From the NCBI GenBank assembly GCA_025738555.1, contig JAOVFP010000021.1:1054001-1118000 (forward strand): DNA of 64,000 nt. Direction: 5' to 3'. The translations under genes were made by a program, and so were the position numbers. Below, piece after piece: positions 9,854 through 49,680 of the stretch. Positions within the stretch are counted from its first letter, which is position 1; the number at the start of each line of letters is the position of its first letter. The notes beneath the pieces were generated by a model that did no database searches, was not told the DNA's origin, and saw nothing but the letters and a program-made list of their open reading frames with translations. Source of the DNA: Cyathus striatus. Its lineage: Eukaryota; Basidiomycota; Agaricomycetes; Agaricales; Nidulariaceae.

Positions 9854-9859
9854 CTCATT

Positions 9860-10890: not shown

Positions 10891-10891
10891 C

Positions 10892-13512
10892 ATGATGTCT
10901 CACCTCTGCAGTCAGAACACACTCCTTCAAACAAACTGTGATGCTTATCTCGGTTCAGTCATTGTACAGGCATTTTTAAGTGGCTTATCACTATATTTCA
11001 TATTGTGACTATGGTGATCTGATGCATTTTCACTATCCTTAGGTTTCCACACATTCATTGTATATCGTACAGTTCACGCTGCAGGTGACATTGAAGAATG
11101 TACTACTCGTAGATGTGTATGAACTTACAATGTGCCACTTTCAGTTCGAAATGGCCCGAGACACATATTCCTTATGATTGTCTTGATATTTTTATATGTT
11201 TTAAACATGATCAATTTCGCAGCTTCATGGGTAACAGCAAGATCTATTATAATCACCTCCAATGAGGCAAAAATGCTACTCCACATGACATTTGTTGAGG
11301 GTCTTACAGGTATGGCAGTAATATTGATTGCGGACACATTGCTGGTATGTCCAGACACACGATTCTTAATGTTGTACCATATGATCGGATATGCTAGATC
11401 TGGAGATGTTATATTCTGTGGTTCAATAACAAATGGTTATTGGCATTATTTGCAGTTCCACTCTTAGGAGCTCTTTACGCTCCCCCCCCCCTTTCACGTG
11501 AATTTCACATGAATTTCACATGAATGGGTGAATTTCAGGTGAACTTTTTGCATTATTTTTGTTGAATTTCAGTGAGAACACTGCTAATAATTTCATGTGA
11601 ATTTTGTATGAATTTCACCGGAACTTCACTAAGTGACATGAATTTCATGTGAAGATGAAGTGAAAATTCACATGAATTTTTCACCTGATATTCATGTCAC
11701 TCAGTGAAGTTCATGTGAAATTCATGTGATACTCATGTGAAGCTTATACAAGAGTAGAGAGTAATACTGCATGTTGAGTGTGACACCCAGGGCTGAGTGT
11801 GACACCCAGGGCTAAGTGTGACACCCAGGGCTGAGTGTGACACCCAGGGCTGAGTGTGACACCCAGGGCTGAGTGTGACACCTAGGGCTAAGTATGACAC
11901 TCAGGGCTAAGTGTAACACCAAAGGCTGAGTGTGACACCTAGAGCTGAGTGTGACACCTAGGGCTGAGTGCAGTCATCAAACTTGTCACACATGTGTGAA
12001 AGTGTGACATTGGAAAATGTTGGAAAAAGCGTGACATGTGTGACATGCGTGGGAAAAATGTGACATATTTGGAAAAGTGTCACATACCATAATCATCACA
12101 TTTGCCACACTTTCCGACTTTTCCCACGCTTGTCACGCACGTCACACTTTTTCCCACGTTCGTCACACATGTCACGCTTTTTCCCCCAACATTTTCCAAT
12201 ATGTCACATTTTTTCCCACGCATGTCACACATGTCACGCTTTTTCCAACATTTTCCAATATGTCACACTTTCACACATGTGTGACAAGTTTGATGACTGC
12301 ACTCAGCCCTAGGTGTCACACTCAGCTCTAGGTGTCACACTCAGCTCTCAGTGTCACTCTCAGCCCTGGGTGTCACTCTCAGCCCTAGGTGTCACTCTCA
12401 GCCCTCAGTGTCACACTCAGCCCTTGGTGTCACACTCAGCTCTCAGTGTCACACTTAGCCCTCAGTGTCACACTCAGCTCTCAGTGTCACACTTAGCCCT
12501 CGGTGTCACACTCAGCCCTTGGTGTCACACTTAGCCCTGGGTGTCACACTTAGCCCTGGGTGTCACACTCAGCTCTAGGTGTCACACTCAGCTCTGGGTG
12601 TCACACTTAGCCCTGGGTATCACACTCAGTAGTGTAATGACCTCCAATTTTTAATATGAATTTCACTGTATTTTCACCTAAATTTCACCTAAAATACATG
12701 AAAGTTCATGAACCTATGCTTTTTGGAAAATATTTAAAATCACATGAAGTTCATGTAATTTCATGTGAATTTCATGTGAATTTATATTAAATAGGTGATT
12801 TTCATGTGATTTTCACGTGAATTTCATGTGAATATGTGAATTTTAGGTGAATTTCATGTGAATTCATGGTGAAGGGGGGGGGGAGTGTAAAGTACTGACT
12901 CTTAGGAGAAGTTGGTAAGTAAGTGGTTGGATTACAAGGCAACTATGATGCTAATGTTGATACTACTAATGTACCACTAGTCTTGATTCCAGTGCAACTT
13001 ATACTTACTAGTCATGACAGAAACCCCTCATCCACCCTTGCAATGTGTTTCTTTTCCATATCATTGGGTATTACGGTTATTGCAATATTGATGATTATCT
13101 ACTGCATTTTAGCTGTATTGAGAGAAGTGCTGGAAACCTCCAGGAAATATTGATACATTATCAAAATTCTCATCGAGTCGGGGATCATATATTCGATTTC
13201 ACTGCTCATCACAGTTATTGTTGAATCACTTCCAAGTGTGAGCTCATCAGCAATAGAAGCAAGTTTCTATGCAGGCACTATTCTAATTCCGGTTGCAGTG
13301 AGTGTGTTTCAACATTCATTCCAATATCACCTACTTCTGTTTAATTGACTCCAACATAGGGAATTGCACCCACATTGATATCTGAGCATGTTATTGCCAG
13401 TACGGAGAGTTATGAAGGCAGATGTGCTCAGATGACCTCCCTGAGGTTTAGACACTCAACCCTAATAGATGGTACCCATCAAGAGACTAATATTAATGCC
13501 AACCCTTCTTGA
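10892..13512 (+). pseudogene. Membrane-protein family member 1 (broken by a 1.4-kb palindromic insertion and a stop)
   Basis: Exon 1 begins MMSHLCSQNTLLQTNCDAYL and carries the family signature GSVIVQAFLSG. Exon 2 (about 11,043-11,085) encodes FHTFIVYRTVHAAG. Exon 3 (about 11,139-11,343) has two helices and ends ADTLL. Exon 4 resumes after an intron with WRCYILWFNNKW and is cut at PLLGG by an inserted element (11,471-12,897). The remaining coding sequence restarts at 12,900. Exon 5 has a TGA (about 13,150) where the intact members have GGA in RYGYII. The last exon (about 13,359-13,512) keeps GIAPTLIS and the basic tail. Intact relatives are predicted seven-helix proteins of about 285-300 residues. 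It is the paralogue of the gene at 47,774. Confidence 0.85.
11460..12908. mobile_element. Nested palindromic (foldback) element built of three minisatellites
   Basis: The insertion is flanked by ACTCTTAGGAG on both sides (11,460-11,470 and 12,898-12,908), the coding sequence it interrupts. Its ends are imperfect inverted repeats (left CTCTTTACGCTCCCCCC, right inverted ACTTTACACTCCCCCC). Inside, layers are arranged symmetrically. The outer layer is variations on GTGAATTTCACATGAA (about 11,490-11,745 and 12,640-12,875). The middle is GAGTGTGACACCCAGGGCT (about 11,770-11,970) answered by its reverse complement (about 12,298-12,630). The inner arms contain GTGTGACA and GTGGGAAA words (about 11,968-12,080 and 12,100-12,295). 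The whole 1.4 kb can fold on itself. It has no gene; repetitive reading frames inside are translations of the minisatellites. Confidence 0.85.
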
Positions 13513-13519
13513 GTAGGTT

Positions 13520-13903
13520 GATCTCAGGCTTGTAATTAATCTGAATCTATAACTTCATGATACCACAGAGAGCTCATACATTTAAAGTAGTGCATAAGCT
13601 TTTTCACACTAGAATGTAATAGAGTGGGATAAGTAATTTGCAAATTCCCCGAAAATTCCTTTCTTTGTTTTTCATGCTTCAGTTGACTAGAACTTGAAGT
13701 ACATTTTGGCCGCCTGATCCTGACTTCTCATGCATATTATCAAGCGCACATCTGTAAAAACTTTTTACACGCGCCATGAACACCACAGGAGAGGCAGGCT
13801 GCACCTCTCTGTTATCCTCTCCTTAACTCTCAGTAGCCAATGAATTAATTCGAATGCGACAACCAAGAAACTGCATGGCTGTCTCTCCCACAAACCATCT
13901 ATG
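13520..13903. other. Part of segmental duplication, matches 49,030-49,380
   Basis: This region aligns with the downstream flank of the membrane gene at 47,774, for example GGCTGCACCTCTC at about 13,799 and 49,250. Similarity ends abruptly at 13,904, where the 15-kb transposon enters, and resumes at 29,090. No gene is recognised. Confidence 0.6.
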
Positions 13904-13999
13904 GTTCGCTCTGGGCCTACAGAATTTGATGTTGCCCCATAATTTGACGTTGCCAGTGAATATCTTGCAGCAACGCCAACCCTCACATGGCAACATCAA

Positions 14000-16600
14000 G
14001 CAACATCACGGAAGCGTGAGGGGTGGCTGTGGTCGAAGTCGATGTGATAATGCCATGTATAGGTGAAATAGACTTGCGAATGAAAAGAAAGAAGAAAAAC
14101 AGGAGAAATATATATATACTGAGATAAAAACTACATATATGGAAGGGAACTTGAAATGAATATAGAAGGGTGTCCAAAATCCATAGAATATACTTTGTTG
14201 ATAACATGAGAAGAGAAAAGTATGAGGGGAGAATAACTGAACAGAAATAGATTGCACAAAAAGAGTAACCAAATATTGTCGCCAGTGACTGAATCGCCAG
14301 GACTTAATCTTGGTCTATGTGTCAAAACAACAATAATGAGGCAGTGGTGGTGGCAGAAGGGAGGTGCTGGTGGGACTGTGGTACCAGTGGTGGGTGAGAT
14401 GATGTTGGGGGGACAGAAGTGAGGGATGTGGTAGCTGGGGCCAGGGAGAGAAGCTAGGGGAGGGGGAAGATGGAGGACAGATGACAGAGAGGTTGACATG
14501 GCCATCTACCAGATGACCTGCATGAACTTGAGGAATGGGACATAGAGGTTGGGAGACATTGAGGTAGGGAGCAGGTGCTTGCGCTTGTGGGGACCAAATG
14601 ATGGACATTGAGGATAGAATGTGCCATCTACTCTATGTAGACAGCAGTGGGACATTGAGGTAAGGATCGAGGATTGGGGGAGTAGGAAGAGTCATGGATG
14701 AGATGACATTATGAAGGGTTGATGTAGTCATCTACACTGTGAGACGATATTTGGAGGTGGATCATTGTGAGGAGGGAGAGGCCCTATATGGCGTAGAACA
14801 ACTGTGTGGGGTATGAGGGGGCGAGACGACTACCCTGTGAGGTGGACTTGGAGTGGAGGAGCATTGTCGTCATTGGTCATTGATTAGTCGTGGGGGGGTG
14901 GGGGGGTGTTGTCACCGATTTGGAGCATAGGTGGGGTAGTGGTGGGAATCTGTTCAAAATAAGCTTTCAAAAGCTTCTCGAGTCCCCCCATCATCCTACT
15001 TCTTAACTGAACTATATCAAACGTTCAAAGATCTAAAACTTAAACATGGCAATAGAATCAACATTCATCAGCTATAAGGAGCAGGCTGATTTTTATAATG
15101 TGCATACCTTTCTCTTCACTTTTGTGTTTTCTAAACAACAAGATTGCATTAGGCTGGGGAGCGAGTTATGGTGTGCTGGGGCAGACTGGGGGCATGCTGA
15201 AGAGCGGCTAGGCTGATGAGCATTCATCATCAGGAAGAGGACAATGATGAGAGGAGGGAAAGGGGGCTTGAGATCACCAAAGTTGAAGTAAATCTCTTGT
15301 CAATGTAAACCAATTAACACTGACCTGACCTTATAATAGACAGTACACTTCTTTGTGTGCACAGGAAGGATGCCGAAAAGTTGCCGTGTAGTAGGTTGGT
15401 ATGATATACGTTGCTGGTGAGTTTTTGTATTTGTTATGTTTTTTCTACCTAACATATCTTTAGTGCTTGCAGCAATTGAATGAAATATAAAGTACATAAA
15501 TATGTAGTTTAAAAGTTGTAAAATAGTGGTCCTTAATCAATATCTTGGAAAAAACTGGAATGAGAAAGAGATGAACAGATTGGCCTAGAACATCGGGCAA
15601 TGTAAAGAATGGAACGTTCCCCACAAAAAGCCCCCTCCTATGGCATACCTCGCTCCTTCAAAATAGTAATTGCCTAGCTAATACGAACCTATGGCATGTC
15701 CTTCGTGTGAATTGTGTCTGCCTATGTGCTATGCAGACACAAGCACACAAGTGTGAAGCCTAACCTGGGGTTCGTCTAACTTCGTTTTCGTCTTTGTCTC
15801 TACAACGCTTAATTCACCAAGGCAGTTCGGTATCGGTCTGCATGAGGGTAAGGATGCTTGGCCTGTGTGGGAGGTGCAGGAGAGTCCTCCTGCTTGATGC
15901 CAGTGTCTCTCTTGTTCAGTGCTTCAATATTGGTGCACTCTTCATTATCATGACGCTGTACAGATATTGAGTTATATTAGTTGCAATTAACAATAAACAT
16001 AACTAAATGAATTCATACATTCATTCATTGCAGTCACCCCCAAATTACTTCAAGGCAGGAGGAAGATAGTTGGTGATGAACTCTGAATCCTCACCAGGCA
16101 AGGACAATCTCGATGGTGTTCCAACCTAAGGAGCAGACAAGTTTGCTGATGCCAATGGCAAACTGGCTCCAATGTACTCCATTGCATTCTAGTCTTACTT
16201 CAAGACTTGAAGTGGCTGATCATTCAGTTCCCACTCGATCATTGCTCTAGCCCTCCATAGTGGAGCTGGCTATGTGCAGACCTAGCACTGTGTTTGGAAC
16301 GCTCTGGTTTAGTTGGAGTGACTATTGATCTTGTTTGCAAGCTATGAGGATTAGAGCGCTGGAATGGCAATATTAATAATGGACTGTTCTCCACAGAAGC
16401 AATTCACGCTATGAAAGGAACACAGCCCCAGTATGAATATCAACACTGGCACTGGATTGAAGATTTTCTTAGGTCTAGCACCTGACCAGCAGTAATAGTC
16501 ATATATAAGCCAATCACCAATATCCACTACAAATGATAACTCACACAGACAGGACTGGCACAGCCAATGTACTGAGAGAACAAAGAGGAATCAATGAGCC
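14000..16600. other. Left non-coding part of the 15-kb transposon
   Basis: No convincing gene. The 14,290-14,960 stretch is purine-rich on the plus strand, with recurring GGGACATTGAGG-like words. A segment of about 65 bp (15,535-15,600, containing GAATGAGAAAGAGAT) recurs at 16,622-16,690 in the same orientation. Confidence 0.45.
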
Positions 16601-16679
16601 AATTTGTAATATAGTGATCTTTGATGAATATCTTGGAAGAGACCAGAATGAGAAAGAGATAACCGGATTGGCCTACAAT

Positions 16680-16950
16680 GTTGGGCAGCATCAGGCAATG
16701 CCAGCAACGTCAGGAAATGCCAGCAATGTCACAGGCAATGCCAGCAATATCCATGGGCAACACCAGGCAATGTCATGGCAATGCCAGGCAATGCAAGCAA
16801 CGTCAGACAATACCAGTTCTCAGATGTTCGCAATGCCAGGCAATGTCAATTCACAGAATAGCAATGCCAGGCAACATCAATCCTCAGAGGGGCAATGTCA
16901 AGCAACATCACATGCAAAATTGATGGGCAACATCAGCAATGTCACTTGCA
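16680..16950. repeat. GGCAATGCCAGCAAYGTCA minisatellite
   Basis: Degenerate tandem copies of GGCAATGCCAGCAA(C/T)GTCA fill this stretch. The same words (GGCAATGCCAG, GGCAACATCA) reappear at 28,915-29,075 beside the right end of the transposon. The Asn/Ser-rich reading frame across it is a by-product of the repeat. Confidence 0.75.
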
Positions 16951-16974
16951 AAACTCATAGTTATTGTACACAAC

Positions 16975-17400
16975 ACTCTGCTTTGGAGTTACTGGAGCAG
17001 GTATACAGAAGTAAATGAACAACTATGAAGGTGTTGGTGGCATCAGTAATGAGCCTTCCAAGCAGTTGAGAATGAGCTAGGGCGTCTGCTTTAGAATTAC
17101 CAAAGCAGTTGACGAGGTGGTGGGATGAGGGAAGAAGAAATTCGGCTTTAGAAGTACCAAAGCAGTGAGGTGATGGTCATGGTGGTGTAAAAAGGAATGA
17201 CTATGAAGGGTCAGTAGTGTTGGTAATGAGCCTTCCAAGCAGTTCAGAACGAGCTAGTGTGTCTGCTTTAGAATTACCAAAGCAGTTGACGATGTAGTGG
17301 GATGAGGGAATAAGGAAGTCTGCTTTAGAATTACCAAAGCAGACGAGGTAGGAGTATGAGAGAAGAAGAAATTCTGCTTTAGAATTACCAAAGCAGCGAG
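16975..17400. repeat. Array of five or six short palindromes (CTGCTTT...AAAGCAG)
   Basis: Near-perfect 23-bp inverted repeats with a five-base centre occur at 17,086-17,108, 17,144-17,165, 17,263-17,285, 17,320-17,342 and 17,374-17,396, with a degenerate one near 16,977. They are separated by GATGAGGGAAGAAG-like spacers. They lie downstream of the minus-strand transposon gene. Related arrays are at 25.0-26.0 kb. Confidence 0.8.
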
Positions 17401-17449
17401 GTCATGGTCATGGTGGTGTGAAAAGTAGGAACAATATGATGATAGGCTC

Positions 17450-18280
17450 ATACTATTTGTTGTTCAATGTTTGAGCTGGAATTTAAATTCTTAGGTAATT
17501 TGTTTTACACTAGGTCAACTAGAAGAGTACTGATACTTATAGGCTCATAAGAAGTAGGCTTAATTATATTAAAATATAATGGGTAAAAGTAACATGTACA
17601 ACACTTAATCAAATGAAATGAGTAGCAGTCTAATTTAATCTATACAGTGTTTGGAATATAAAGTAATATTTTTATTGAGTACTGCATTACATATATCTAA
17701 ACTAAGTTGATTTATGTAATATACAACAATACTTGGAGTATATTTACCAAATTTTATGGTAGAATTAGATGTCGAAACATATATAATATGAGGATTATGG
17801 AGGAGGTCACTTTTTAGCAAAAACCAGGACTTGACACAGTATGTCACGGGTGTCACAATAATTCACACCTACGAGTTTGGGGGGATCAAGAGCATGTGAC
17901 AAGCCTGTGTCACTCAACGGAAATCATTAAAATCACTACTTTCTCAGTATTTCCTTTTTAAACATCACATTTCTGCCCCTATCAAGCTAATATTGGAGGA
18001 AATGTATATATGTACTGTTAAAGTATAGATGAAATTTTGTAAGAAACTACCGCAGCTAGAGAACTTAATATTTTGGTTATAAAACTGTGCCAAGATGAGA
18101 TATTTACCTGACTTTGGAGTGATCCCTATTTATCTTCCCCTCTGCTGTACATAATTTTTTCAAACTTTTCTTGAGAAGAGAATATACACAGTAGAAAATG
18201 TATGCGAAAATTCTAAGCAATACAGCAAAATGGTGAGGGAGGAGGATGAAAGCACAGGTGTGTCAAGGAGTGTCGCTGTG
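17450..18280. other. Non-coding region downstream of the transposon's minus-strand gene
   Basis: AT-rich, no recognisable gene. It probably holds the 3' end and terminator of the minus-strand gene, whose reading frame ends at about 18,281. Confidence 0.35.
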
Positions 18281-18434
18281 TCAAGGAATGTCCAAACTCT
18301 GTATGGTCCTTCTTTTGGGATGTGGCTTTGGGCATGGTTTTTCTTCCATTTGAACTGGCGCCTCCGAGTCCAATTCTGATTTTTCATACAAAGGGCCTCT
18401 CTAATAAATAGTAAGAACAATTAGTCTTTTCGAG

Positions 18435-19110
18435 TCATGCAATATTACAATAGCACACCTCAAAATCTTCTTCGAAGTCTTCAAAGTTTGGATTGTTCCA
18501 GCCTTCAGGAAGATTTCCATATAGATACCAACTATCCTGAAGGGGACCATGATCCAAACCCCATACACCACTTCCTGCTCTTCCTGCTTGAGGTGATCTT
18601 TCAAAAAGATGTCGCTCGAATGCATATAGGCACTCTTTATCAATATCAAGACCATTCATGATGCTTGGATGGCAGTTGAGCTGGTAATTCCATGATGCCT
18701 GTAACAAATCATTGCTGGAGCTAAACTCCTTTGCATATTTAGCTGCAATATAAACCATTACTGCATGTGTGTAAGGGATTTTTAATAACCATTCTGATGC
18801 CTTCTCGATCTTGTTGGCTCCAGGAATGTTGAGATAGAACCAATGAGCTATTTCAGCATGTCTAAGGGCTGTGAGATTGCCATAGTGATTGACTGTTCCT
18901 GGTACATGTCCTAATTCTTTGGTATTAAGCCTGTTATGAACATATACCACCACTGGTAAATTAAATGTGTCCTTATCAGTGTCCAGAGGATCACAATCAA
19001 GTAATGATTGGAATAGCGAGATGTGAGGTTGTAAGATAGTGCTTGTTTCATTAGTTACTTCAATATCACAGAACTCAAATATTATGTCCTCCTTGTTACA
19101 AGTTTCAAAA
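18435..19110 (-). other. C-terminal domain of the transposon protein, unknown fold
   Basis: An uninterrupted frame of over 200 residues contains HNRLNTKELGHVPGTVNHYG and GLDHGPLQDSWYLYGNLPEG. It then crosses a short intron (donor GTGTGC at about 18,462, acceptor TTAG) to an exon rich in Glu and Lys that ends at about 18,281. I cannot assign a fold. It follows directly on the reader domains and shares their strand, so I treat it as part of the same gene. Confidence 0.5.
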
Positions 19111-19129
19111 GAGCAGGTCCATTTTCCGA

Positions 19130-19741
19130 GCTATTGTCCACTCAGTACAATTTTGAATGAAATATGAAACAACTTATATGTTTAGCACATTGTCCCTTCA
19201 AATCGCCCCACAGTTCATCTACAATATTTCCCAATGTGACAATGTAATATAAAGAAGACACAGATGATTCTTGAACAATGCAATCTCGCCAGAGGCGGAC
19301 TTTCTACTGACAGTAACCTATTCTGGTGATAATTCTTGATGGATACCAATGATCCCCGATGTGAATTAAAGCCCCACAGCCTGGGCTATTTAATCACTAA
19401 GTACAATTCATGTAAGAGTAATAATTAAATTGCTCACATTAACCAACTGGAAAGTTTATTCTTCTCCCAGTTTAGTGGCTTTTGAGCTCTGGAAACAATG
19501 AATTAGTGGTACTAACTAGCCACGAAGAAAGGAGATCTTACTGGGGATATGAAAACTTGTTTAATTGTAGTAGAAGTAGAGCTGTAGGGTATAAGCATTC
19601 ATCACACTTAAAGTCCATGTTGGCCTTGAGATTCAAGGCATGACCATCTCTTTGACATGCTATACGCATCCAAGCTCTACAAAAGTTGCACTGCACTGCA
19701 CTAGACCCCTTGTCATCAATCTCCGGTCCATTACCCTTCAT
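19130..19741 (-). other. PHD-like finger followed by tudor-like segment
   Basis: The sequence VQCNFCRAWMRIACQRDG followed by FKCDECLYP has the Cys spacing of a PHD-type finger, preceded by an acidic linker. A GTAAG donor follows at about 19,540. Further on, GCGALIHIGDHWYPSRIITR then KVRLWRDC resembles a small beta-barrel reader (tudor- or chromo-like). A TAG separates the two halves of that barrel, probably from an ancestral TGG. Chromatin-reader modules suggest targeting to nucleosomes, but this is inference. Confidence 0.5.
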
Positions 19742-20182
19742 CCCACATCAACAATTAAAAGGGGAATCTGATACACTCTTGACTTCATTGGTTTCAACAT
19801 CTCCTTGCAGCAGCTCCACATCATCTTCCAGAGGAACAATGGCTTCATTGGCAGATTCAATTTCTCCATCATCCAGCTGCTCCACTTCACTTTCGAGAGG
19901 AAGAGTGGCTTTATCAGTAGATTCACCTTCATCTTTGAGTGGCTTAGCATCATTGTTTGATTTGACTTCATCAGCAGAAACAACTTCAGATTCACCTGAA
20001 TTGACTTCGGGAATTTCAATTTGACTATCATATTCTAGGGTAGCTTTCTTGATTTTGTCTGAAGCCCAGAAATGATCCTCTGGATTCACTAGAGTAAACC
20101 CTTGATGCTGGAATGAAAGGGAGGCTGCTGTAGATAAAATGTGTTTTCCATTAATCTTAATGCCAAACTGTTGTTGGATATT

Positions 20183-21300
20183 TCACTTAATAGAAGTCGA
20201 GTATTGTTGCTGAGCCCTTGTTCCACCCCGTAGCCAATAAACTACACTGGATGTTAGATAGTCTTCTGGCACCTTAATACTGGGCACAAACAAAGCTTCA
20301 TCTAGTGTTAAGTCTTGCATTTCTTTTACCAATCTGCCTTCCAGTCCATCATAGTAGTATAGCTTTGAATTAGCGATGTGGCATGTTATAAAATGTTGAT
20401 ATTTGTGACTATAGAACACATGTCCAACCATATCATAAATAACACTGTGTTCCCCTTCTAAGGATGGAAGAGGCATTAGTGTCAACAGAAAGTGCCATTC
20501 TTTTGGAGGCTCTGCTGTTAGACAGCTGTTGTCAATGTTAAATATTAAAATGACTGGAATTGACATCCAAATGTCATATTTGAAGATTTTTCCGTCACAG
20601 AGGGTCTCCTCTTCATGCATTCTAAAGCAGTTGAATGGTCCTTTCTCATCGAATTGAATATGAGATTGTAGCCACAGAGTAACCTTGCCATTGTAGCTCT
20701 TGAAGTCATCAAGAGAAAGATCATTGTACATGCACCTCAATGGTGTTTTGGGGACGTGCATGTGTATTCCATCTGTAGATCAACATTCTCCAACAGTAAT
20801 TTCTAGCTGTTCAAAATACAAATGCGCTAGATAACTTTCATCACTACTTTCATTCTGGATAATAGCGTAAAACCAAGACTGCAAATTATTTATTAGTGAA
20901 TACAGAGAAGAAAATAAATAGAGATAATACATACCCACAGTGTGTTACATTTATCTTCAGTAGTGTCTCCAAGCTTATGAATTGTCAAAGATTTCCTGAA
21001 AGCATCCCGAGATGCATTCAGAATCTCTATAATGCCTTTAGCCTTAGATGTCTTCTGAGCTTGCTCCCACTGCTTGAACAATTTCAGAAATTCTGAAAAT
21101 GTTGAATCACCAAGAACTTTTCCAGACATATTCTTGAAGTTCTTAGAATTACACTGAAGTGCTTCAAAAAGGAGTTGTAATGACAAGTCAAGCCAGCAGG
21201 AATTACGATACCACCCAAAACAGGGCAGTCCAGGGGGCTTCTTTTTATAGGATTTATGAATGGATGTCTTATTTGAACTAGGGAGCACTTTCACTGATTT
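20183..21300 (-). other. Ubiquitin/SUMO-hydrolase-like (USP/C98-type) protease domain of the transposon protein
   Basis: The first part contains WYRNSCWLDLSLQLLFEAL (about 21,215-21,160), resembling the Cys box of ubiquitin-specific proteases with Cys in NSCWLD as nucleophile. About 900 bp further along, the minus strand has YDMVGHVFYSHKYQHFIT, which resembles the His box, followed by KLYYYDGLEG, a typical position for the Asp/Asn. Box order and spacing fit a papain-like fold of the USP or USPL1 (C98) type. A gap with a likely intron lies at about 20,760-20,940. Its role in the transposon is unknown; desumoylation or deubiquitination of a host silencing factor is only an idea. Confidence 0.6.
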
Positions 21301-21801
21301 TAGAGGAACTTCAAGCACCAGAACCATATCAGGTGGTCGTCCATCATTTACATACACATAATTTTCCATTGTCTTTTTTGCTTTTGTTTTCTTTTTGGGT
21401 GGCAGTATAGGCTCAGCTATAGAGTCCGTATTATCTTCATCATCCACATTGGATTTCCTTTTCTTTTTGGGGAGCTGTATAGGCTCAGATGTAGAGTCTG
21501 TATTATCTTCATCATCCTCATTGGCTTTCCTTTTCTTTTTGGGCAAGGGTGCATCCATGTTATCAGATGGTCCAGCTTTCCTTTTCTTTTTGGGAAAGGG
21601 TGCATCCATGTCATCAGGTGATCCAGTTGTCTTTTTAGCTTTCCTTTTCCTTTCGGGTGGGGGTAAAAGCTCTCCTGGAGTGTCAGGAGGGTGTCTGTCA
21701 CTCTTCTCATTCTTGTTTTGAAAGTTATGGGACTTGCATCTCTTACCCTTCCAATGATTAGCCCAGCCGTAGTGTATTATAGCACCATCTAAAAATTACA
21801 A

Positions 21802-23200
21802 TTAGCTAAAAGTGATATTTAAATTAAAGTATGTACACCTACTGGCAGTCACTTTAAAAAGTGTGTTGTAACTTTCTGCTACAGCATGAAGTGAATATAG
21901 TCCATTCTTGAAGAGGTAGTCACATCCTTTAGTGCAGTAGATCTTCCAATGTTGGGCTTCCACAGCATTTTTTGTTTCAGGCATTGAGTCCCAAATAGCA
22001 GGTTCCATAGTCCTCTTCGAAACAAATAGCATCAACGCTGTGGATTCATGTAGGTACCAATTAAGCCATGGCCTTGCTAAAGGAAAGTCATACACTGCCA
22101 CAGTTCAACAGAGCCATCATTTTCTTTTTGAACTCTGGAACCCTTTCTAGCGAAACAACTCCATGAATGTGGGAAATTCGAGTAATATTGGCCCGAAAGT
22201 GTTCTCTGCAGCCTTTAAGCTACTTCTGACAGCTCTTCTAATGTACATGCATCATCATTGGCCTTCCTAACATCAACAAAAGCCTCTATAAACCCATTCC
22301 TTTCTGCTTCACTGAAGTCCATGACCTAGAACAATGGGTTCAATAACTATATAGATCTTTATTTGAATAAAACTTACCCCAGCGAAGCAGTCATCTGGAA
22401 GATCTACATCCTGAAGTCCTGCTTCCTGATACATGCTATTGAAAAGTGCCTTAAAATGATTTGCATAATGTTTTGAAGTTCCTCCTTCACTATATGAGAA
22501 CATCACTGGAAGCCAACTTGACAGAAGTACGGAGTAAACAGAGGAGATGATCAGAATAGAATTACTGTTCTTCCACCATCCATGGGTTGTGTTACTAACA
22601 AGACCGTTAATAGGACTATCAGCACACATTTCGAGAAGCATTTGAGATGCCATAAAGTTGGACTGAAAAGAAATAACTAATTCGGTTTTAATCCAGGCTT
22701 CCATGACAAAATCAGGATATGTCTTCATGAATTTTCTGTAAGATTGATAATCAAACCCAGCACATGGGTTAAGACCTTCAGCCTTAATAATCTTATTCCA
22801 GTCATATGATATCCTGTCCTTGTTTGCATAAACAGGGGCTATCTCTACAGCCAGAATCCCAGGTTTTCCACTAACACTCTTTGTGCCTGAGTGAAGCTGT
22901 GCAGGTTTCGCTGCAGGATGATTTTTAACAGTACTTACAAATTGCTTATATTGATGTGGTAACAGGTGTATCTCCTGCCCAGGCTTCTTATGACAATGGT
23001 ACCCTTTGTTCTTGAAATGAACACCTCCAGCCCAGGTGTATTGCAATGGCTGAACCCCACAGTCAACATGGTACAACTGCACACTCCATATAAGATTTTG
23101 GCACCCTTTTTAACATGAGTAAGTCCTTGTAGGACAATCTTACATCCTGAGTTAATGCAGACCATAACACCTTGACATTTATGGTCTGTAACCTTGCCTT
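21802..23200 (-). other. Transposase region with WRKY-GCM1-like zinc finger
   Basis: The upstream part has CQGVMVCINSGC and then YHVDCGVQ and GYHCHKKP, spaced Cys and His residues like the WRKY-GCM1 fingers that accompany MULE transposases. The core reads GLVSNTTHGWW, then SSWLPVMFSYSEGGTSKHYA, then VMDFSEAERNGFIEAFV. The second block's Asp (MDF) fits a DDE catalytic residue. The first position is Asn (VSN) where I would expect Asp, so the copy may be inactive; this rests on memory of the family, not an alignment. The frame shifts by one base near 22,206 (after ELSEVA) into GCREHFRANITRI and shifts again near 22,100 into VYDFPLARPW. Confidence 0.65.
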
Positions 23201-25019
23201 ACATCCAATGATCAGCATCAACTGAACCATGTCATCGCCTCCCATTGGTTGACCAAACAACCCAGTGGTGCAAAAGATTGCCAGTTAATTTAATGTAATT
23301 ATGGGACATGTCGATTTCAATATTTCCGTTTGGATATCCATCCCACCAAGTTATTTCAGGATCCCACTCTTCTAATTCTAATTCTGTACATTTCAATTGG
23401 TGGCCAGCTTCCCTATTTTGTTGCTTAGGAGATCATTGAGACTGTAGTGCATGTACAGTCTTCTTTGTCTGGTCACCTGATTCTCTCTCAGAGGATTCAT
23501 GGATATGGTGGCCAGCTTTCTTATTTTGTTGCTTAGAAGATTGTTGAGACTGTAGTATGCATGAAGATTTCTTTGTCTGGTCATCTGATGTATTTTTATG
23601 GTGAACAGATTTCTTTGTCCTCTGGTAGCATGTAGCCTTCTTTATCTTCTGGTTGTCTGATTCACTCTCAGAGCTCTCAGAGTCATCCTTCTATGCCAGG
23701 TAAGTTATAACATATGTGACAACTGTAGAATGAGAATATTACCTTTTTATGCTTAGGAGACTGTGGTATTTGTACAGTTTTCTTTTCCTTCTGGTTGCAT
23801 GTAGCCTTCTTTATCTTCAGGTCATCTGATTCGCTCTCAGAGTCTTTAATCTCTGACTCAGAGTCACATACATGAACATACTTCTACACAAGGTAAGTTA
23901 TAACATACAGGTTAACTATAGAGCGGGGATCTTACCTTGGTCATCTTTTTTGGTGTAGGAGATCATTTGATATCTTCAACCTCACTAAGTATATGTACAG
24001 TTTTCTTTATCTTTTTGGGGAGTATAGCCCTCTTTATCTTTCAGTCATCTGATTTTGATACAGAAGCCAAATCCTCTGTCAGTTTACATTTATCAAGTTT
24101 GGAATCAGAAATGGGAGCTTCACAATCAAAGTTGCTCTCCAATTCAATCAATTCAACCAATTTGACTGATTTGACTGCAGAAAAAAGTGTCAGGGAATCG
24201 CTCCCTGATTCGGAGGCTTTAGATAGAAATGGACAAGGGGGTGCTGCTTCAGAGAGGAGAGGATGGGGGGTAGCTTTCTTATCAGGGCATTTCCCTGGTT
24301 TCTCTTCCTTGATGATATCCTCAATGGAATTAGAAAGGAGCAGGGCTTCTTTTACCATAACCTCTCTATTTTCATTGCCCCTGGCATTAGAAGTGCTATC
24401 TATGGATATATCTGCCATGATTGCAATTGATGGAATATCCTTTGATTTTCCATCCACAATGTCAGTCTTAGCCCCTTCTGCTGCCTTATTAAGTCCTCAG
24501 TATTAGTACTACAAATATTTATATCATATTAGTGAATATCTCACCTTGCCCCTGGACCCAACATTAGCTTTGACATGGGCATCATCTGACTCATCACAGC
24601 TTGCTTCAACATAGTAGAGAATGTTTCCTGATAGGAAGAAAGAGTTCACTGACAAATCATATTTATTAAATATAGATTCCTTACCAGTTTTCTGATCTCT
24701 AACTTCACATAGCTGTTTTTTGGTTTTTTTCTTCACTGGTGATTCAGTAACTTCAACTGGCTGCATGGGCTGTTTTTTGGTTTTTTTCTCCATTGGTGAA
24801 TTGTTAACTTCAACTGACTGCATGCTTGACTTGAACAATTATCGCTTCCGTTTCTTTTCATGTTTGAATAGTTCAGATATGAACCGTGCAACATTGGGCT
24901 GAAGGAGACACTGTTTATTACTCTCAAGTACTTACTAGATATCAAGGACTTACAAATGACATTAGAGTTGCTGTAGTTGTGCTTCGGAGTTTCATAGAGA
25001 GCTAAAGGAAATGAAAAGA

Positions 25020-25625
25020 AAGAAAAACTGCTTTGGAGTTACCTAAGCAATTGTAAAGGGGGCCGTAGAGAGCTAAAGGAAAGGAAAGGAAGGGGGGCAC
25101 TGCTTTGGAGGTACCAAAGCAATCATAAAGGGGCAAAGGGAATAGAGACAGCTTTGAAGAGAGCTAAAGGAAAGGAAAGGAAAGGAAGGGTGGCACTGCT
25201 TCGGAAGTACCAAAGCAATCATGAAGGGGCTGAGGAAATAGAGACAGCTTTGAAGTTACAAGAGTTGTAAAGAGCCAAAGAGCCAAAAGAAAGGAAGAGT
25301 ACTTTTGAGTAACAGAGCAACTTAAAGGGGGAGGGAAGAGAGTAACTGTGAACACTTGGAATTTCAAAAAAAGAACCCCCTTGAGCAGAGTTGGACTCAG
25401 AAAAATAAAGTACCAGCTGCATTAGAACACTGATGGGCTGACAGCTACTGATCATGTTGCAAGCGAGGTATAGACATGGAGAATAGAAATACATGCCTTA
25501 GAATTACCAAGGCATGTTCATGGGGGAGAGAGATATGAAGATACATGCCTCAGAATTACTGAGGCATGTTTGTGGAGAGAAAGAAACAAAGATGAGAATA
25601 GAAATGCTTGCCTTAGGAGGCTGTG
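25020..25625. repeat. Short-palindrome array upstream of the transposase gene
   Basis: Palindromes of the CTGCTTTGG...CCAAAGCA type occur at about 25,029, 25,099 and 25,195. Two at about 25,495 and 25,545 have the changed stems CATGCCTTAG...CCAAGGCATG and CATGCCTCAG...CTGAGGCATG. The differences on the left arm are matched on the right arm. Spacers are AAAGGAAAGG-type purine runs. The array lies just upstream of the minus-strand gene. Confidence 0.75.
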
Positions 25626-25724
25626 CATGCTGAGATAATCAAAGCTCAAATATGGACCAACAAAAAATTTCTGCTCAAACATTGAACAACAAAAAGGACA
25701 GCTTTCTTGCTTCTTTTTATAACA

Positions 25725-25990
25725 TTGTGTCACTGCTTCGGCTTTCTAAGGCTGACGCTCTCCCCCCTACTTAGGTTTTTCCAAAGTAGACCTTCCCCTC
25801 TCCTGCTCCTTCACCATTACTTTCACACTGCTACCACATCACTACTTAGGTACTTCCAAAGTAGGTGCCCTCCCTCCTTTACCATCATTTTCACACCACC
25901 ACCACTTTGCTACTTTGCTACTTCCAAAGTAGACAGATGCTCTCTCCACTCCACCACATCACTGCTTCGGTACTCTAAAGCAGGCACTCT
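25725..25990. repeat. Oppositely oriented short-palindrome array upstream of the plus-strand transposon gene
   Basis: Five units such as CTACTTAGGTACTTCCAAAGTAG, separated by pyrimidine-rich spacers, lie between about 25,733 and 25,985. The centres are the reverse complement of those at 25.0-25.6 kb, and the spacers are CT-rich instead of AG-rich. The two arrays therefore face away from each other around about 25,680. Several stems read CTACTTT...AAAGTAG in place of CTGCTTT...AAAGCAG, so both arms changed together. Confidence 0.72.
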
Positions 25991-26143
25991 CCCCCTCCCT
26001 ATCTTCCTAGTTTCCTTCAGTTACTGCATTTTTGGTAACTCTGGCATTGCATCAAACCCTTTGCCACCCCTTTACTCTACCTCTGCTGGTCAGTCTACTC
26101 CATATCCACCCCTTGACGTTACACTAACTTCTTTCCTAGCAAC

Positions 26144-28766
26144 ATGGCTTATCCTCCACTGAATCACTCCAATGGTCGTGCAATTAGGTCTAAAGGATGT
26201 GTGTTCTATTCGCCCAATGGCACTCGAAACATTATCGTCCCAATGTGCTACAGCAAAAATATGTATCTCTTCCATAGTGACACCTTGCTCAATGAGGTTT
26301 TTCAAAAACCTATCTGGTGGTCTGATCCATGTGGCTGGCTCTCATTTGTCCCCTGTATGCCATCGTTCATGGGCATCTTTTCTTGCCTCGCTGGGGCACC
26401 ATGTATCATGCATCCTGATGGTGAGCATTGGTTTGGGTTGGATGAGACCTCTATGCATGAATGGTCTCAATTAGAGTCTTGGCTGATGTTCACCTACAAA
26501 ATGCTTGCAATAAAATATGGGACTCTTGCCATCACTCCAGCTCCTCCTTCCTTCTCTGGATATAAAAGAAAACATAATACCAGAGAAATCATGCGAAGAT
26601 GTGCTGAAAATTCCCACAAGTGGTTTGTATTGTGGATGGGGCTTCTCTCATATGCAATCGCCATGAGTGATAGCCAGTCTGTCCACCATGATAGCAACTC
26701 CATTATGTATCCTGAATGGTACACTTATCTTGCTGGATGTACGATTCCAGAGAGTCAGTGTACCATTCTGGAGACTTGGCTAACTGGAATAAAATCGTCA
26801 ATGATTTGTAATTTCTCCAAGCCTTGTCTTCATGTGGGAATCATCATCAATATTCCGGAACTTCAGAAAACTCACTGCCCGATGTATCCTTTCTTCTTGA
26901 AATTCAACTTCCCATTCTGGTATGCATGGGGGCCTTATGAAAAAAGGCAATCTCAGGATTTCCAGCCATATAAGGCCTTAATACCTTCACTGTCTATTGT
27001 ATGGAAGGATTTAAGTATTGTGGAGAGGCCTGATGACTATGTTCAACATATTGAATGGAAAGAAACTTCGTTCACCCATGTGCACCCTGCTGAATCTGCT
27101 TCCCCTGCATTGGCCCCATCATTGCAAACTTCCTCTCAACCTCCACATCTGCCTGCATCCTCTAATGTCAACAAATCAAAGCCTGCATGGAAAGTGTTCT
27201 TGGAATCTCATGAAGCTCATTATGAAGCTAGATGGAAAACAGAGACAGAGCAGCAATGCCAGACTCACTTAAGTCGTGAATGATCTTGAGGTTGGATTAA
27301 GGCAAGAGTTTATAAGTGGCAACTAGACGACAATGACCCCCCTGTTTATATCAGGGTAAGGATTGATGGTAGAACTGCCAAGGAGTTGGTGATGGAACAG
27401 TATGGCAATAACCAGATGATATTCAACCCTTATGACAATGAGTGGGACTTGTGTGAAGAATTTGGATCCCCAGATTCAGATTCAGATTCAAATGAAGCCG
27501 AGCCTGAGCCTGCGTATGATGCCTCTGAGGATACATATACCATGTCTGATGCCATGTGTGTTGTACAAACTTCCCATTTCGAGCATTCCCCTTCCCATTT
27601 CACTCATTCCCCCCCTCAGGATGATGAATCTGATGATAGGGAAGATGTAGTCTCTCTTGATGATCTGTCCCTTTTTTATGGGTTCATGCACTCAGATTGA
27701 GTTATGGTAACAACCACATACAATTGGGACGACATGATGAGGGCCATTGGTTATATTGGTGGAGTTGCCCAAGCTCCCAATGACCATCTTAAAACTTTGA
27801 TCACCAGCTTCATTGGGCCGTTGATACAGGGGTGTGCCCCCCCCAAGTGCATTATGGGACATTCACAATACTAGGGATTTGCACAAAGAAATTATTGGCA
27901 CATGCCATGTATACAAGGTGCAAAGCTTGTATGTAGTAGTGCCGCATTCTGATGCTCAGAATGTTACCTGGTATTTTGGTGTAATGACAGCCCATGATGC
28001 ACTTTATGCATGCAGACTTCTCTCTGTTGTTGACAACATGACTGTGTATGGCGTGGCATGAGAATTTCTAGCTAGAGGTATTCCTTTCCATATGCTTCAG
28101 GAGCCACAGATATCCTCTGCCATGTCATTGAGCACCAATCCTGTCATTAGCACCTGTCATCTTCCAGGTTATAAGTTTACCTATGACAACTATGTTTCCT
28201 ATATTGAGATATGTAAAGCATTTCTCAATTCTCCTTGTGGGCATGCAGCTTTACTTATGGGAGGGATTATCAGATGAATAGCATGGGAACATCTTAGTTT
28301 CGATGGGGCCCTTCATGGTCCATCTTCTTCTGTGACTAATCACCAGATTGGAGTATGATATGTTCACAGTTCAGGATGGGAGCTATGCGATGATGGTCTC
28401 ACTGAATATGAGGCTTGGATAGTATGTGGATGCTATATCATTTACACTAGTAAATTTTATTTTTTATATGACTATGATTATTATTGATGAGACAGGTAAG
28501 GTCAAATGCAGAAAAGTATTGTATCTTGGTGGCCACTTCCTGGATGCTGGGCATGTGAAGATAACAGTCAAAAATGGGGCTATTGGTCCCCATTTAACAA
28601 ATATTGGTATGAAAAATGAGTGAAGGACATCAGATCAGGAGCAATGAAGCCTGAAAGCAATCTGGTTTGGCGGCAATGGCTCAGGGCAAATCACTTTGCT
28701 TGGACCTTACGACAGACTGTGGAAAAGGAGTCACATGACTATCTTGAATGTTATTTACAAAACTAA
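26144..28766 (+). pseudogene. Second gene of the 15-kb transposon, unknown function (broken)
   Basis: A long frame from ATG 26,144 runs 379 codons to TGA at 27,281. It contains NSHKWFVLWMGLLSYAIAMS, WYTYLAGCTIPESQCTILET, and SKPCLHVGIIINIPE followed by FNFPFWYAWGPYEKRQSQDF. Similar sequence continues in shifted frames: an acidic Ser/Asp/Glu-rich linker (27,386-27,700), a block at 27,834-28,277 including KAFLNSPCGHAALLMGGIIR, and a last block ending LECYLQN at 28,766. I recall this protein type as a frequent companion of such elements in mushrooms, but I know no function or catalytic motif. The gene diverges from the transposase gene and shares its upstream palindromes. Multiple stops and frame changes after 27,281 make this copy a pseudogene. 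Confidence 0.6.
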
Positions 28767-28779
28767 CCATTGCTTGCTA

Positions 28780-29089
28780 CAAATGTAACCACTGTAATGT
28801 TTTATATTTTATTTTGCAATACATATACATTGATGCTCGTAGCTTGGAACTTAAGAAAATTTTGCAGAAAACATCGAACACAAGTCTAGCAAGCAACCAT
28901 CAAACCTCTTGAGTCTTTGTAGCAATGCCAGACAACAAACATCACACCAAGTCTAGCATGCAACATCAAACCTCTTCATGGCAATGCCAGACTGCAAGAC
29001 GGAAACGCCAGGCAATGCCAAAGTCCAATTACTGATGGATGGCAACATCACTGGCAACACCACTGGGCAACATCAAATTCTAGTAGCCT
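28780..29089. repeat. Right subterminal region of the 15-kb transposon
   Basis: Repeated GCAACATCA, GGCAATGCCAG and AAGTCTAGCA words fill 28,870-29,075. They are the reverse complement of the GATGTTGC words just inside the left end (13,931-13,960). Subterminal short repeats often bind transposase in DNA transposons. Confidence 0.65.
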
Positions 29090-29098
29090 GTTCGCTCT

Positions 29099-29985
29099 CC
29101 TTCTAATCATACCATACCTGCATATCTTCCTGGAACAGGCAAACCCACCCGCCGTCATCTTGCCAACGTCATAGTTTAGAGTAGGTGTTTCGCCTGCACT
29201 ACAAAAATCAATAAGTATATTAAATTTTAAATTATGTAATCAATTTTTACGTGTGTCAATGTGTTCAATAAGTACATTCAACATTCTCACTTTCTCTGTT
29301 GGTTTCCCTCCAATGCAGACGCTCTTGTACATAGCATCAACACCGCAGTTACCCAACAGGAACTCAACATCGTCAGTATCCTGCTTTGCCAAGCCAATGA
29401 ATACTGAAAAAGTTTACTGAAGGTCCTGTCACCATGACCTGCCAAGGTCTCCCTAAGGTCTCCCCCTCCAAGATTTATTCTTCAAGTTTTCTTTCAATTC
29501 TTCTCTATGTTTTATGTCTCAGACTTTACCATTTCCCTTTCGAAATCTACAATGTGAAAATGTTGGTCCCCTCATAGTCTTTGTCGAAGGGCTTCATCCT
29601 GCCACCACCTTGTTCTCAGTCTCAGTCTTGTCTCATTATCATGACCTCGCCAATCTTCTGTGCTCAAAACTTCATTTTGAAGTTTTCTACTTCTGTCTTG
29701 CTCTCCTCTGTTCAGTAGATCACTAACTCCCTTTCTGGATGCCTTAGAATATCACAGGCTGAACAGGGTTAGACTGACTTGCATTAAAATTTATTTTCTT
29801 CGGTACTTGTAAGTCTTTCCATTGTTCTTTTGACTGTATGCTCCATTTATTTTCTTGCCTTCCTTCCTCTACCCATGTTGTCCTTCACCCTGCCTTTTCT
29901 TCGTTACTCCATAATCATACCTTGTCATTTCATCATACCCTTCTTCCATTCACATTTTCTCCTTCTCCTTCTCTATTACACAGTC
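29099..29985. other. Resumption of the segmental duplication right of the transposon
   Basis: CATACCTGCATATCTTCC at about 29,115 matches 49,400 and restores the alignment interrupted at 13,904. The remainder (about 29,200-29,980) holds no recognisable gene and is partly unique to this block. Confidence 0.5.
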
Positions 29986-30129: not shown

Positions 30130-30980
30130 CAAATACAATGAACCTCTCCTGTTACCTTGGCAAGGAATCCTTACTCCTGGAATACTCAATTATGCGGATT
30201 GTTGTGATAGATCATCAGCACTCGGTGCTTACCTGAATTGACTGAGTGTAGGTACAACAATTAATATAAGTAGGTAATAACTGAATAAGTGACGTGAAAT
30301 ATGTATGTACTGTGACAAAGACTTCCTGATCTAACAGTGATGTAATATTAACCACTTGCAAACAGTGAGTGACTGCTGTCCGGTCTCCTACCCACCACTG
30401 GTACTGGAATTCTGGAGTGCATTTAAAAAGAACATGATTCCAGAAGACTCAGCATTAGAAGATACTGGAAACTCATGGGTGCAACAGCTGTGGCGATGTT
30501 CCAAAGTCGAAAAATGAGTCAGTTGACTTAGAGTTAGATGGGAGGCCAACAGGCGCTGCGTACAATGGTAGTTTACTGACACGATACTACCACCGTCCCA
30601 TGCTGAGTGGTGGGACGGAGAAGTCTTCTAGATAGCAGGTTTGTCTTTAACAGGTCTTGAACATCTGCTTTCTTTTGGTGCACAAACCATACAGAATCTG
30701 AACAACATGAATTGAAACTCATGGTCACAATGACATTAGCAAATAGTGACTGTAGTAAACTTTATAATGGTTTGAACAGCTACCCCAGCCGAGACTTGAA
30801 GCTAGAGTAAGTAGAAGCACTGGCACTTTACAGAATGCTTGATGTTGATATGCATCATGATGTGTTATACTTGGAAGTATGATTATTACCGACATCTGAA
30901 CTCTTTAAAATGAATGTATTTGCTCAGTTTTCATAGCATAAATTATTGTCGACCTAGGTTGATTTGAAGACACCCTTGCC
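30130..30980. other. Upstream region of membrane-family member 2
   Basis: No gene is seen. It matches 49,780-50,620 closely in the other block, for example GTAGGTACAACAATTAA at about 30,248 and 49,900. The last 150 bp also resembles the region upstream of the gene at 43,973. Confidence 0.5.
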
Positions 30981-30983
30981 CTC

Positions 30984-32111
30984 ATGTCTCAACCCTCCTT
31001 ACCAGGTACAATCACTAAAGCAGTGTTCGACTCAAATATTGGCCCACTAATTGTACAAGTGTTTTTAAGCAGTATGTCATGATATTATATAGTAACTTTA
31101 TGCTCTTATGTATTGACTGTCTTCAGACTTATACACCTTCATTCTATACCGAACTGTCCTTGGTGCAGGTGAAGTCAGATAACACATTCATAGACATATA
31201 CAAACTTACATAGTGATTTAGTCCCAAGAATTTGAAACGGGAGACATATCCCCTTAATGGCTGCCTTGATATCTTTATATATCATAGACATGATTAATTT
31301 CACTGCAACTTGGATTGTCACAAGATCTGGGTTGGTGGCATACATGAATGATTCAATATTATTCATTAATATCGAAAATGACATGGCCATGGTGACAGCT
31401 TTGATTGCGGACACGCTATTGGTGGGTAATTTTCATAGTGTGGCATCTTCCAGTTGTCTTATCAGATGTGATAGGTCTGGAGGTGCTACATGCTTTGGAT
31501 GAAAAGTAAATGGTTGTTGGCATTATTCGTAGTTGCTCTCATAGGAGAAGGTGGTAAGTGAATTGGCAAATAATGATGATAGTCTGTGGATAATGTTTAT
31601 TATTCACCAGCATTAATGATGGCAGCTTTTGTTATAATGTCCCGGGATATTATAGACAATATTATTCCCTGCTTTTTTATTGTATCATTGGTCATCACTG
31701 TCCTTGCAACATCTATGATTATCTACCGCATCTTGACAGTATTGCACGAAACGGGGACTATGAGGCGATACAGATATATTATCGAAATTCTTGTTCAGTC
31801 AGGAATCATATATTCCATTTCACTTCTTGTCACAGTTGTGTGTTTTTACCTTCCTGATGAGAATGTGTCCGCTAGAGAGGCATACTCCTATGCGAGTGAT
31901 GTTCTAATTCCAGTTGCAGTCAGTTCATTAGTTGCATATAATCTCTTACTTCTGTTTAACTGATTTGATAAACTGGCAGGCCAATGATGATAGCTGAACG
32001 TGTCCTGAACAGCATGGAGCATGACAAGGAGAAGCAGTCCCAACCGATATCTACTTTGAGGTTCAGTCACACTACACAAAGAAGCGAGACTTCCCACCCA
32101 CCGAACCATGT
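30984..32111 (+). pseudogene. Membrane-protein family member 2 (CGA-to-TGA nonsense)
   Basis: Exon 1 begins MSQPSLPGTITKAVFDSNIG with the family signature LIVQVFLSS. Exon 2 (31,127-31,168) encodes LYTFILYRTVLGAG. Exon 3 (from 31,222) reads VPRI then TGA, where the paralogue at 50,622 has CGA. Exon 4 (about 31,475-31,552) reads WRCYMLWMKSKW. Exon 5 (about 31,610-31,918) is open. The last exon has lost about 8 bp around GIAPT relative to the intact paralogue. The gene is the counterpart of that at 50,622 and is probably dead. Confidence 0.85.
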
Positions 32112-32119
32112 ATGATGTT

Positions 32120-48974: not shown

Positions 48975-49680
48975 CCCACTTCGGGCTTGTGATGAATCCG
49001 AGTGTATAACGAGCTCATATGTTTAAAATAGTACATAACCTTTTTAGTACGAATCTAATAGAATGTAATATGTAATTTGCAAAAAATTCTCGATACCTCT
49101 CGAAAGACTTGGACTTCTTTCTCGTTTTTCGTGCTTCGGCCGATTAGAAGTATACTTATGGCTGCCCGATCCCGACCTTTCACGCATATCAAGCGTGCGT
49201 CTGTAAGAGCTTTTCACACGCGCCACGAACACCCCAGGAGGCTGCACCTCTCAGTTGTCCTCTTCTTGACTTCTTGACTCTCACTAGCAGGTGCAACTTG
49301 AACTTTGATGGATTCGAAATTGGAAATCTTGAAGAATCTGTGCAGTGTGTAGCTGTTTCTCCCCGCGAACCATCACGGTCCACAGTAGGCACCTTCCAAC
49401 CATACCTGCATATCTTCCCTGAGTTTCTGGCACAGGCAAACCGCTACCATCTTTCCAACGTTCTTGTATACGCCTTGTCGTCAAATGTTTAGTTCTGCAA
49501 TAGCAGAAGAGTCAGCTGCCCTTGTCGAACCCACAATGTTTTCTTTCCCAAGGAAGATTTAACAAATTCATTCACTAGTAACACACAACAGCACGCCGAG
49601 CACGAACTACTTCATTGGTTCTACAACTTCACCAAATCATCTTCAAATCCAGGTCTTGAAAAACTGAACGTAAGGATGGG
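48975..49680. other. Downstream flank of member 4; empty site of the 15-kb transposon
   Basis: 49,030-49,380 matches 13,570-13,903 and 49,390-49,470 matches 29,105-29,180, with nothing between them: this is the uninterrupted form of the site occupied by the 15-kb element. A frame at about 49,289-49,490 (LNFDGFEIGNLEESV) might be a gene remnant, but I do not recognise it. Confidence 0.55.

Follow-up and report, generated by a model that had tools for sequence, protein, structure and literature searches.

A large two-gene DNA transposon of Cyathus striatus that probably works like a Mutator-like element

A 64,000-nucleotide stretch of the Cyathus striatus genome (C21:1054001-1118000; hereafter the window) contains a block of about 15 kb between two copies of a 9-bp sequence, which raises the question of what was inserted there and how. 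The genome analysed comprises 107.45 Mb in 24 contigs. We consider it very probable that the block is a dead copy of the autonomous form of a large cut-and-paste family with two genes whose mode of action is that of a Mutator-like element (MULE), the mechanism proposed below being part of this reading.

The core of the insert (13,913-29,089; 15,177 bp) lies between two copies of GTTCGCTCT, the left (13904..13912) and right (29090..29098) target-site duplications directly outside its ends. The A-type end, GGGCCTACAGAATTTGATGTTGCCC, occupies 13913..13937 on the + strand, and its inverted repeat runs on to about 13,958. The B-type end occupies 29065..29089 on the - strand, where it reads AGGCTACTAGAATTTGATGTTGCCC. 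Both inverted ends share AGAATTTGATGTTGCCC, and the terminal inverted repeats (TIRs) measure about 25-45 bp in A and B versions. An inner repeat unit near the B end, present in the copies C1a, C18, C7, C6 and C5, is absent from the window copy. With up to three mismatches allowed, the 25-base end pattern occurs in the window only at 13,913-13,937 (+) and 29,065-29,089 (-), and it was found in none of 100 shuffles. The flanks align to a segmental paralogue at 48.35-52.2 kb: the left flank (12,899-13,828) matches 48,353-49,271 with 79.5% identity, and the right flank matches through 29,111-29,169 (49,399-49,461; 72%, E 7e-5) and 30,213-32,531 (49,865-52,183; 83.9%). Since the paralogue is collinear with both flanks and lacks the block, the insert is absent there, and the empty site is placed at 49271..49461 on the + strand. 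The paralogue is old, with only about 80% identity close to the insertion point and a diverged target 9-mer, so that collinearity is shown but the exact junction is not. The paralogous empty site claimed in the preliminary description, made from the letters of the window, is thus sustained in its collinear flanks (including the proposed alignment to 49.0-49.5 kb) and its missing insert, but not in its exact junction.

Searches with both element ends revealed near-full-length relatives on contigs 1, 5, 6, 7, 12 and 18. The C18 and C7 copies are 98.6% identical to one another, and the window copy shares about 95% identity with C18, C7 and C1a. A sister family, with 69-72% identity in a transposase exon, is found in five places and includes the C13 copy of 16,283 bp, which has ATACCATAC on both sides. 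Duplications were read in 19 copies, nine of them from fetched stretches (the window, C1a, C18, C7, C6, C5, C13 and two short copies) and ten from the 30-base flanks of 10 of the 69 facing end pairs described below. Thirteen are identical over 9 bp, three are 9 bp long with one mismatch (C1a, C10:129885 and C12) and three are identical over 10 bp (C5:331562, the short copy C3:31540 and C4:3083304). The mismatch in C10 and C12 is a CpG transition, and the changed base in C1a abuts the first G of the element and so would also have been in a CpG. Loss of the right end of the C12 copy was ruled out, since its B end lies about 1 kb further, with a duplication differing at one CpG. The end pattern, the duplication of GTTCGCTCT and the other copies with the same ends confirm the coding DNA transposon, with the boundaries and 9-bp duplication originally proposed; the further copies that the preliminary description looked to have 9- or 10-bp duplications in 18 of the 18 read at base level.

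Among the sites listed, the two kinds of end pair only with each other. Across the genome, 145 A ends and 155 B ends are found when three mismatches are allowed, and the reversed control patterns give none. Pairing was analysed for the 100 A and 100 B sites listed of these, taking facing neighbours no more than 60 kb apart. All 69 facing pairs join an A end with a B end (33 A-B and 36 B-A), and no A-A or B-B facing pair was found among these sites at that distance; the pairs are copies related by descent, so they do not represent 69 independent events. They span 1,096-7,680 bp in 62 cases and 14,396-21,523 bp in seven. A search with one 1,280-bp copy (L058) found at least 19 places, itself included, that match its whole length, with 40 of 432 candidates scored. 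In C13, the A and B ends are swapped relative to gene order when compared with C21, C18 and C7; the ends therefore appear to have been exchanged, or the interior inverted, between the sister families. One A-B pair (C19:618579-639421) is 20.8 kb apart with no transposase or second-gene match listed there, and could represent a large element that carries different cargo or contains nested inserts.

The interior carries two divergent large genes, as had been noted, with the transposase on the - strand and a second gene on the + strand, and both are broken in the window copy. The transposase gene begins with low-complexity N-terminal exons (24041..24838, approximate, the start not being fixed). 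The next exon (22309..23648) encodes a GCM-type zinc domain and the first catalytic Asp, and is followed by a decayed exon (21796..22290, approximate) that elsewhere holds the second Asp, a CxxH motif and the Glu. A basic linker and the deubiquitinase Cys box NSCWLD lie in 20893..21795, and the deubiquitinase His box and a PHD finger in 19544..20890. A C-terminal open frame (18435..19130), whose 231-aa counterpart is open in C13, probably belongs to the same gene, its splicing to the upstream exons not being shown. The transposase exons are open in C18, C7 and C13. Splicing of the C13 exons, with GT-AG introns of 53, 54 and 56 bp, yields a 1,313-aa stretch whose start and end are not fixed.

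Forty public proteins match residues 105-640 of the spliced C13 transposase. Their names include Mycena, Lyophyllum, Panaeolus, Flammula, Lentinula, Coprinopsis and others, which we take to be Agaricomycetes throughout, and some are labelled GCM domain-containing or PHD-type. The first Asp is present in 39 of the 40, the second Asp in 38 and the Glu in 36, the remainder being gaps, and the CxxH motif retains its Cys in 38 and its His in 39. In a Mycena homologue (P0017) these residues are D257, D331, C372xxH375 and E467. The predicted structure of P0017 has a mean predicted local distance difference test (pLDDT) score of 80.1 and a predicted template modelling (pTM) score of 0.43. In its predicted secondary structure the first Asp sits on a strand, with two more strands and a helix after it; the second Asp comes behind a short strand, and a helical insert separates it from the Glu, which itself lies within a helix. 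This is the order expected for an RNase H-like core. A fold search of the transposase found the USP fold, and its catalytic residues are retained: Cys in 27 of 27 ungapped rows, His in 39 of 39, and Asp or Asn in 37 of 38. UCH gave a weak match in a single C13 exon (E 0.0079) and was not among the matches listed for the complete spliced protein; the fold search settled the USP assignment. The GCM domain is indicated by a profile match to 1odh (E 9.9e-6) and by Pfam GCM matches in three of six homologues (E 3.5e-4, 0.0017 and 0.028, below the curated cut-off), and Pfam GCM gave no match for the C13 transposase itself. A Pfam search of the open reading frames of the window gave nothing useful; a weak TTI1-type match was rejected as low-complexity, and cysteine desulfurase matches (E 0.58 or worse) were rejected as chance. 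No description of a GCM-DDE-USP-PHD transposase was found in searches of an open-access library, most subscription papers lying outside it.

The element works like a MULE, and the formal MULE label is less sure. Duplications of 9 or 10 bp in 19 of 19 copies fall within the 8-11 bp of MULEs, TIRs are present, and the DDE core has CxxH, a hallmark of MULEs, between the second D and the E. The Pfam MULE model (PF10551) found no match in this genome, against matches in 3 of 14 control genomes, a test weakened by the intron that splits the core just 5' of the second Asp. No transposase Pfam model was listed for the spliced C13 protein (E up to 10) or for six homologues (E up to 5). The earlier term MULE-like is apt for how the element works. 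The missing Pfam matches, together with the absence of a credible PDB match for the DDE profile, would fit an alternative in which the element is no MULE at all but belongs to another, or a separate unnamed, fungal DDE superfamily with 9-bp duplications. A PHD finger combined with a 9-bp duplication is, moreover, a listed trait of Rehavkus, an outgroup to MULEs, in the available portion of PMC6446971. We regard this alternative as doubtful, since the duplication length, the TIR length and the D-D-CxxH-E order agree with the MULE descriptions in that portion (PMC6446971), and since two Laccaria Kyakuja families have, in the accessible text of PMC12730594, 7-bp duplications and CA..TG ends without inverted repeats, neither of which the element shows.

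The element can be compared with known systems as described in the available parts of the papers cited. MULEs, including the fungal Hop and Mutyl, share with the element a 9-bp duplication, TIRs (14-500 bp range) and a DDE transposase with a zinc finger, and Mutyl also has a second, antisense open reading frame (PMC6446971). The element differs from them in its GCM-USP-PHD transposase, its A/B end rule, its lack of a Pfam MULE match and its size, which the preliminary description rightly called large for a Mutator-like element (15,177 bp here and 14.4-16.3 kb in copies without evident large inserts). Rehavkus resembles the element in its 9-bp duplication, PHD finger and repeats near an end; however, it is reported from arthropods and annelids, the description available mentions no USP domain, and its minisatellite lies before one end whereas the element has dispersed 9-bp sites in three clusters (PMC6446971). 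We do not claim membership of Rehavkus, the likeness being one of description and not of compared DDE cores. Ulp1, OTU, PHD or C19 domains are joined to transposases in Ginger1 and in a Trichomonas transposase with peptidase C19, but these belong to other transposase families, with a Gypsy-type integrase and transposase_11 (PMC2836005).

The second gene (26144..28484, +) is open over 777 aa in a sister copy (C1:1620496-1622826) and is interrupted by stops and a frame change in the window copy. Its protein has 16 public relatives, Cyathus, Arthromyces and Lyophyllum among them; PF28437 is precomputed for 11 of the 16, and a local Pfam scan of three of these 11 did not return this domain. The ratio of nonsynonymous to synonymous substitution rates (dN/dS) is 0.29 (C13-C1b) and 0.22 (C1b-C7), lower than in transposase segments (0.37-0.72), and the gene is, judging by its sequence, constrained and under selection. 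The protein model is of middling quality (pLDDT 68.2) and has no significant match among PDB folds (best E 1.6). A TET/JBP identity was rejected on this result, though a model of pLDDT 68 can miss such a fold.

Distances between the two genes were compared for 37 of 44 second-gene rows and 52 of 56 transposase rows, the rows omitted being fragments of loci already counted. The second gene adjoins the transposase, 2.9-8.3 kb away, at all 12 loci of at least 77% identity, and is not listed close to transposase relatives of about 30-41% identity. The gene might instead be a passenger, or have been captured from the host, and play no part in transposition. This could be argued from the 25 of 37 loci compared at which its relatives have no listed transposase nearby, and from the failure of its protein to return any known fold or domain. 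We think this unlikely, since the gene stands beside the transposase at every one of the 12 closest loci, has the lower dN/dS of the two, and has in common with the transposase gene a divergent intergenic region in which a 21-bp dyad recurs. Second-gene relatives of about 50% identity without a listed transposase nearby also occur at C6:3765285-3767603 and similar places, several as long frames near 790 aa interrupted by at least one stop.

A helper role for the second protein would have parallels in systems known from the available parts of two papers. VANDAL elements of Arabidopsis (VANC, Kaonashi) are likewise Mutator-type with an accessory gene; short non-coding motifs are recognised by their anti-silencing protein, and some have a Ulp1 domain (PMC13317346). 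The likeness to VANC is one of description, and Kaonashi-carrying elements are non-TIR with Ulp1 in the accessory gene (PMC13317346), whereas here the USP domain is in the transposase. Kyakuja and Zisupton, which carry TET/JBP genes, are Agaricomycete DNA transposons whose accessory gene is thought to counter methylation (PMC12730594); unlike their cargo, the second protein shows no sign of a TET/JBP fold in its middling model.

The element also carries arrays of short motifs. GCAACG[T/C]CA occurs 25 times in C18, 28 times in C7 and 40 times in C13, where shuffles average 0.12-0.20; the 48.8 kb of window flanks contain none. The sites are irregularly spaced, nearly all on one strand, and form left, internal and right clusters; in the window copy these lie on the + strand at 13970..14008 (two of three sites CpG-decayed), 16692..16945 (mostly decayed) and 28910..29075 (decayed). 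The three clusters recur in two 1.2-kb copies, which at E 1e-5 match C18, C7 and C13 at the ends and clusters and nowhere else. A second motif is the 21-bp dyad TGCTTTAGAATTACCAAAGCA. When variants with no more than three changes are counted, four large copies hold 10-14 occurrences apiece, compared with shuffle means of 0.3-0.6, and the 48.8 kb of window flanks hold three. One dyad cluster lies near 3-5 kb of the element (16979..17395 in the window) and another in the intergenic region of the divergent genes (25029..25983), and some variants alter both half-sites together, such as TGCCTT..AAGGCA. The dyad was not found in the two short copies, for which a stricter pattern was used. GCAACG[T/C]CA is putatively a transposase site and the dyad putatively a regulatory motif, and GCAACGTCA and GCAACGCCA are candidate DNA targets for the GCM domain. 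The arrays might instead be neutral minisatellites spread by slippage, as one portion of the internal cluster (16,692-16,793) is scored as a tandem repeat and the window is full of other minisatellites. This seems improbable to us, since the spacing is irregular and the nearly one-stranded three-cluster layout is kept both in the large copies and in two short copies that are otherwise unmatched to C18, C7 or C13 (E 1e-5).

The window copy itself is dead: 38% of its expected CpG sites are mutated and the first catalytic Asp now reads Asn. Among positions at which C18, C7 and C1a are identical, C-to-T or G-to-A changes affect 262 of 688 CpG positions in the window copy, compared with 100 of 12,834 non-CpG positions for the same change types. 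The observed/expected ratio of CpG is 0.237 in the window copy and 0.748, 0.810 and 0.878 in C18, C7 and C13, and stops interrupt both genes. This pattern looks like the loss of methylated CpG. The flanks have ratios of 0.29 (1-13,903) and 0.63 (29,099-64,000), and the low value left of the insert means that CpG loss is not confined to it.

We propose the following mechanism, drawn from sequence features. The GCM domain would bind the GCAACG[T/C]CA arrays and the ends, and the DDE core would join one A end and one B end into target DNA cut with a 9-bp stagger. The PHD finger may read a histone tail at the target, steering insertion to marked nucleosomes, and the USP domain may strip ubiquitin from a nearby protein, be it the transposase, a histone or a repair factor. 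The second protein would be a helper, most likely countering methylation-based silencing. A bolder proposal, which we hold only tentatively and would not expect to survive in full, is that the element represents a distinct clade, perhaps a superfamily of its own, of large mushroom transposons. Such transposons would combine PHD targeting, USP ubiquitin removal and DDE cutting in one protein, mobilise many short partners by means of the 9-bp arrays common to both, with an A end and a B end as an obligatory pair, and encode a second sequence-specific anti-silencing protein that evolved independently of plant VANC.

Several observations weigh against the main reading of the element and its mechanism. 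What supports the DDE fold is residue conservation and the predicted secondary structure: the DDE profile had no credible match among solved structures (best E 0.027, a designed protein), and no DDE transposase was among the rows shown in a VIA-align fold search, which were filled by USP chains. There is a gap at the USP Cys in 13 of 40 homologue rows, and no more than 20 of 40 conform to a strict spacing pattern for the PHD finger; partial proteins are among the rows. The dN/dS of transposase segments between C13 and C18 or C7 (0.37-0.72) is only moderately low; it is 0.09 for transposase exon 1 in the very close C18-C7 pair. Strict 9-bp sites are few in decayed copies (17 in C1a, 11 in C5, 4 in C21 and 3 in C6), and patterns relaxed for CpG decay give 29-35 sites in these copies and 30 in the window copy, with a shuffle mean of 1.6. 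Finally, second-gene relatives of 58% identity or less are far from any listed transposase match at 25 of 25 loci, the nearest 92 kb away, and two of the 25 have no listed match on their contig; the second gene is therefore not tied to this transposase alone.

Beyond the preliminary description, the analysis adds the deubiquitinase and PHD domains, the arrays of motifs, the rule that pairs A with B ends, and short relatives that are non-autonomous. Links between transposons and proteases that remove ubiquitin or SUMO have been found repeatedly, and what role these proteases play is left open in the available parts of PMC2836005 and PMC13317346. In the present case, many mushroom fungi have a transposase fused to a PHD finger and to a USP domain that retains its catalytic residues, and since the ends, sites and short partners are defined, the question becomes testable with single purified domains. 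With the end sequences, a class of repeats that is apparently unannotated (145 A ends and 155 B ends in the 107-Mb genome) can be mapped and masked, and proteins that at present bear the names hypothetical, PHD-type or GCM domain-containing become recognisable as transposases.

The duplication-rich region might suggest that the 15-kb block arose as an artefact of assembly or of segmental duplication. Separate copies on other contigs, each with its own duplications, refute this reading, which has next to no probability. Segmental duplications of 74-84% identity surround the empty site (30,213-32,531; 43,800-45,116; 49,865-52,183), and a direct duplication of about 1.4 kb (57,218-58,673 and 61,930-63,395) is 81% identical. 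Inverted repeats of about 1.1 kb (2,184-3,269 / 39,390-40,813 and 11,775-12,629 / 38,683-39,109) consist largely of a 19-bp TGTGACACT-type minisatellite and have the outer sequence GGAGCTCTTTACACTTAGCCA in common. They are perhaps the ends of one or two further large elements, and no flanking duplication was seen by eye. Two 64-bp tandem arrays in opposite orientation, 95-99% regular, lie at 36,763-37,096 and 37,585-37,788.
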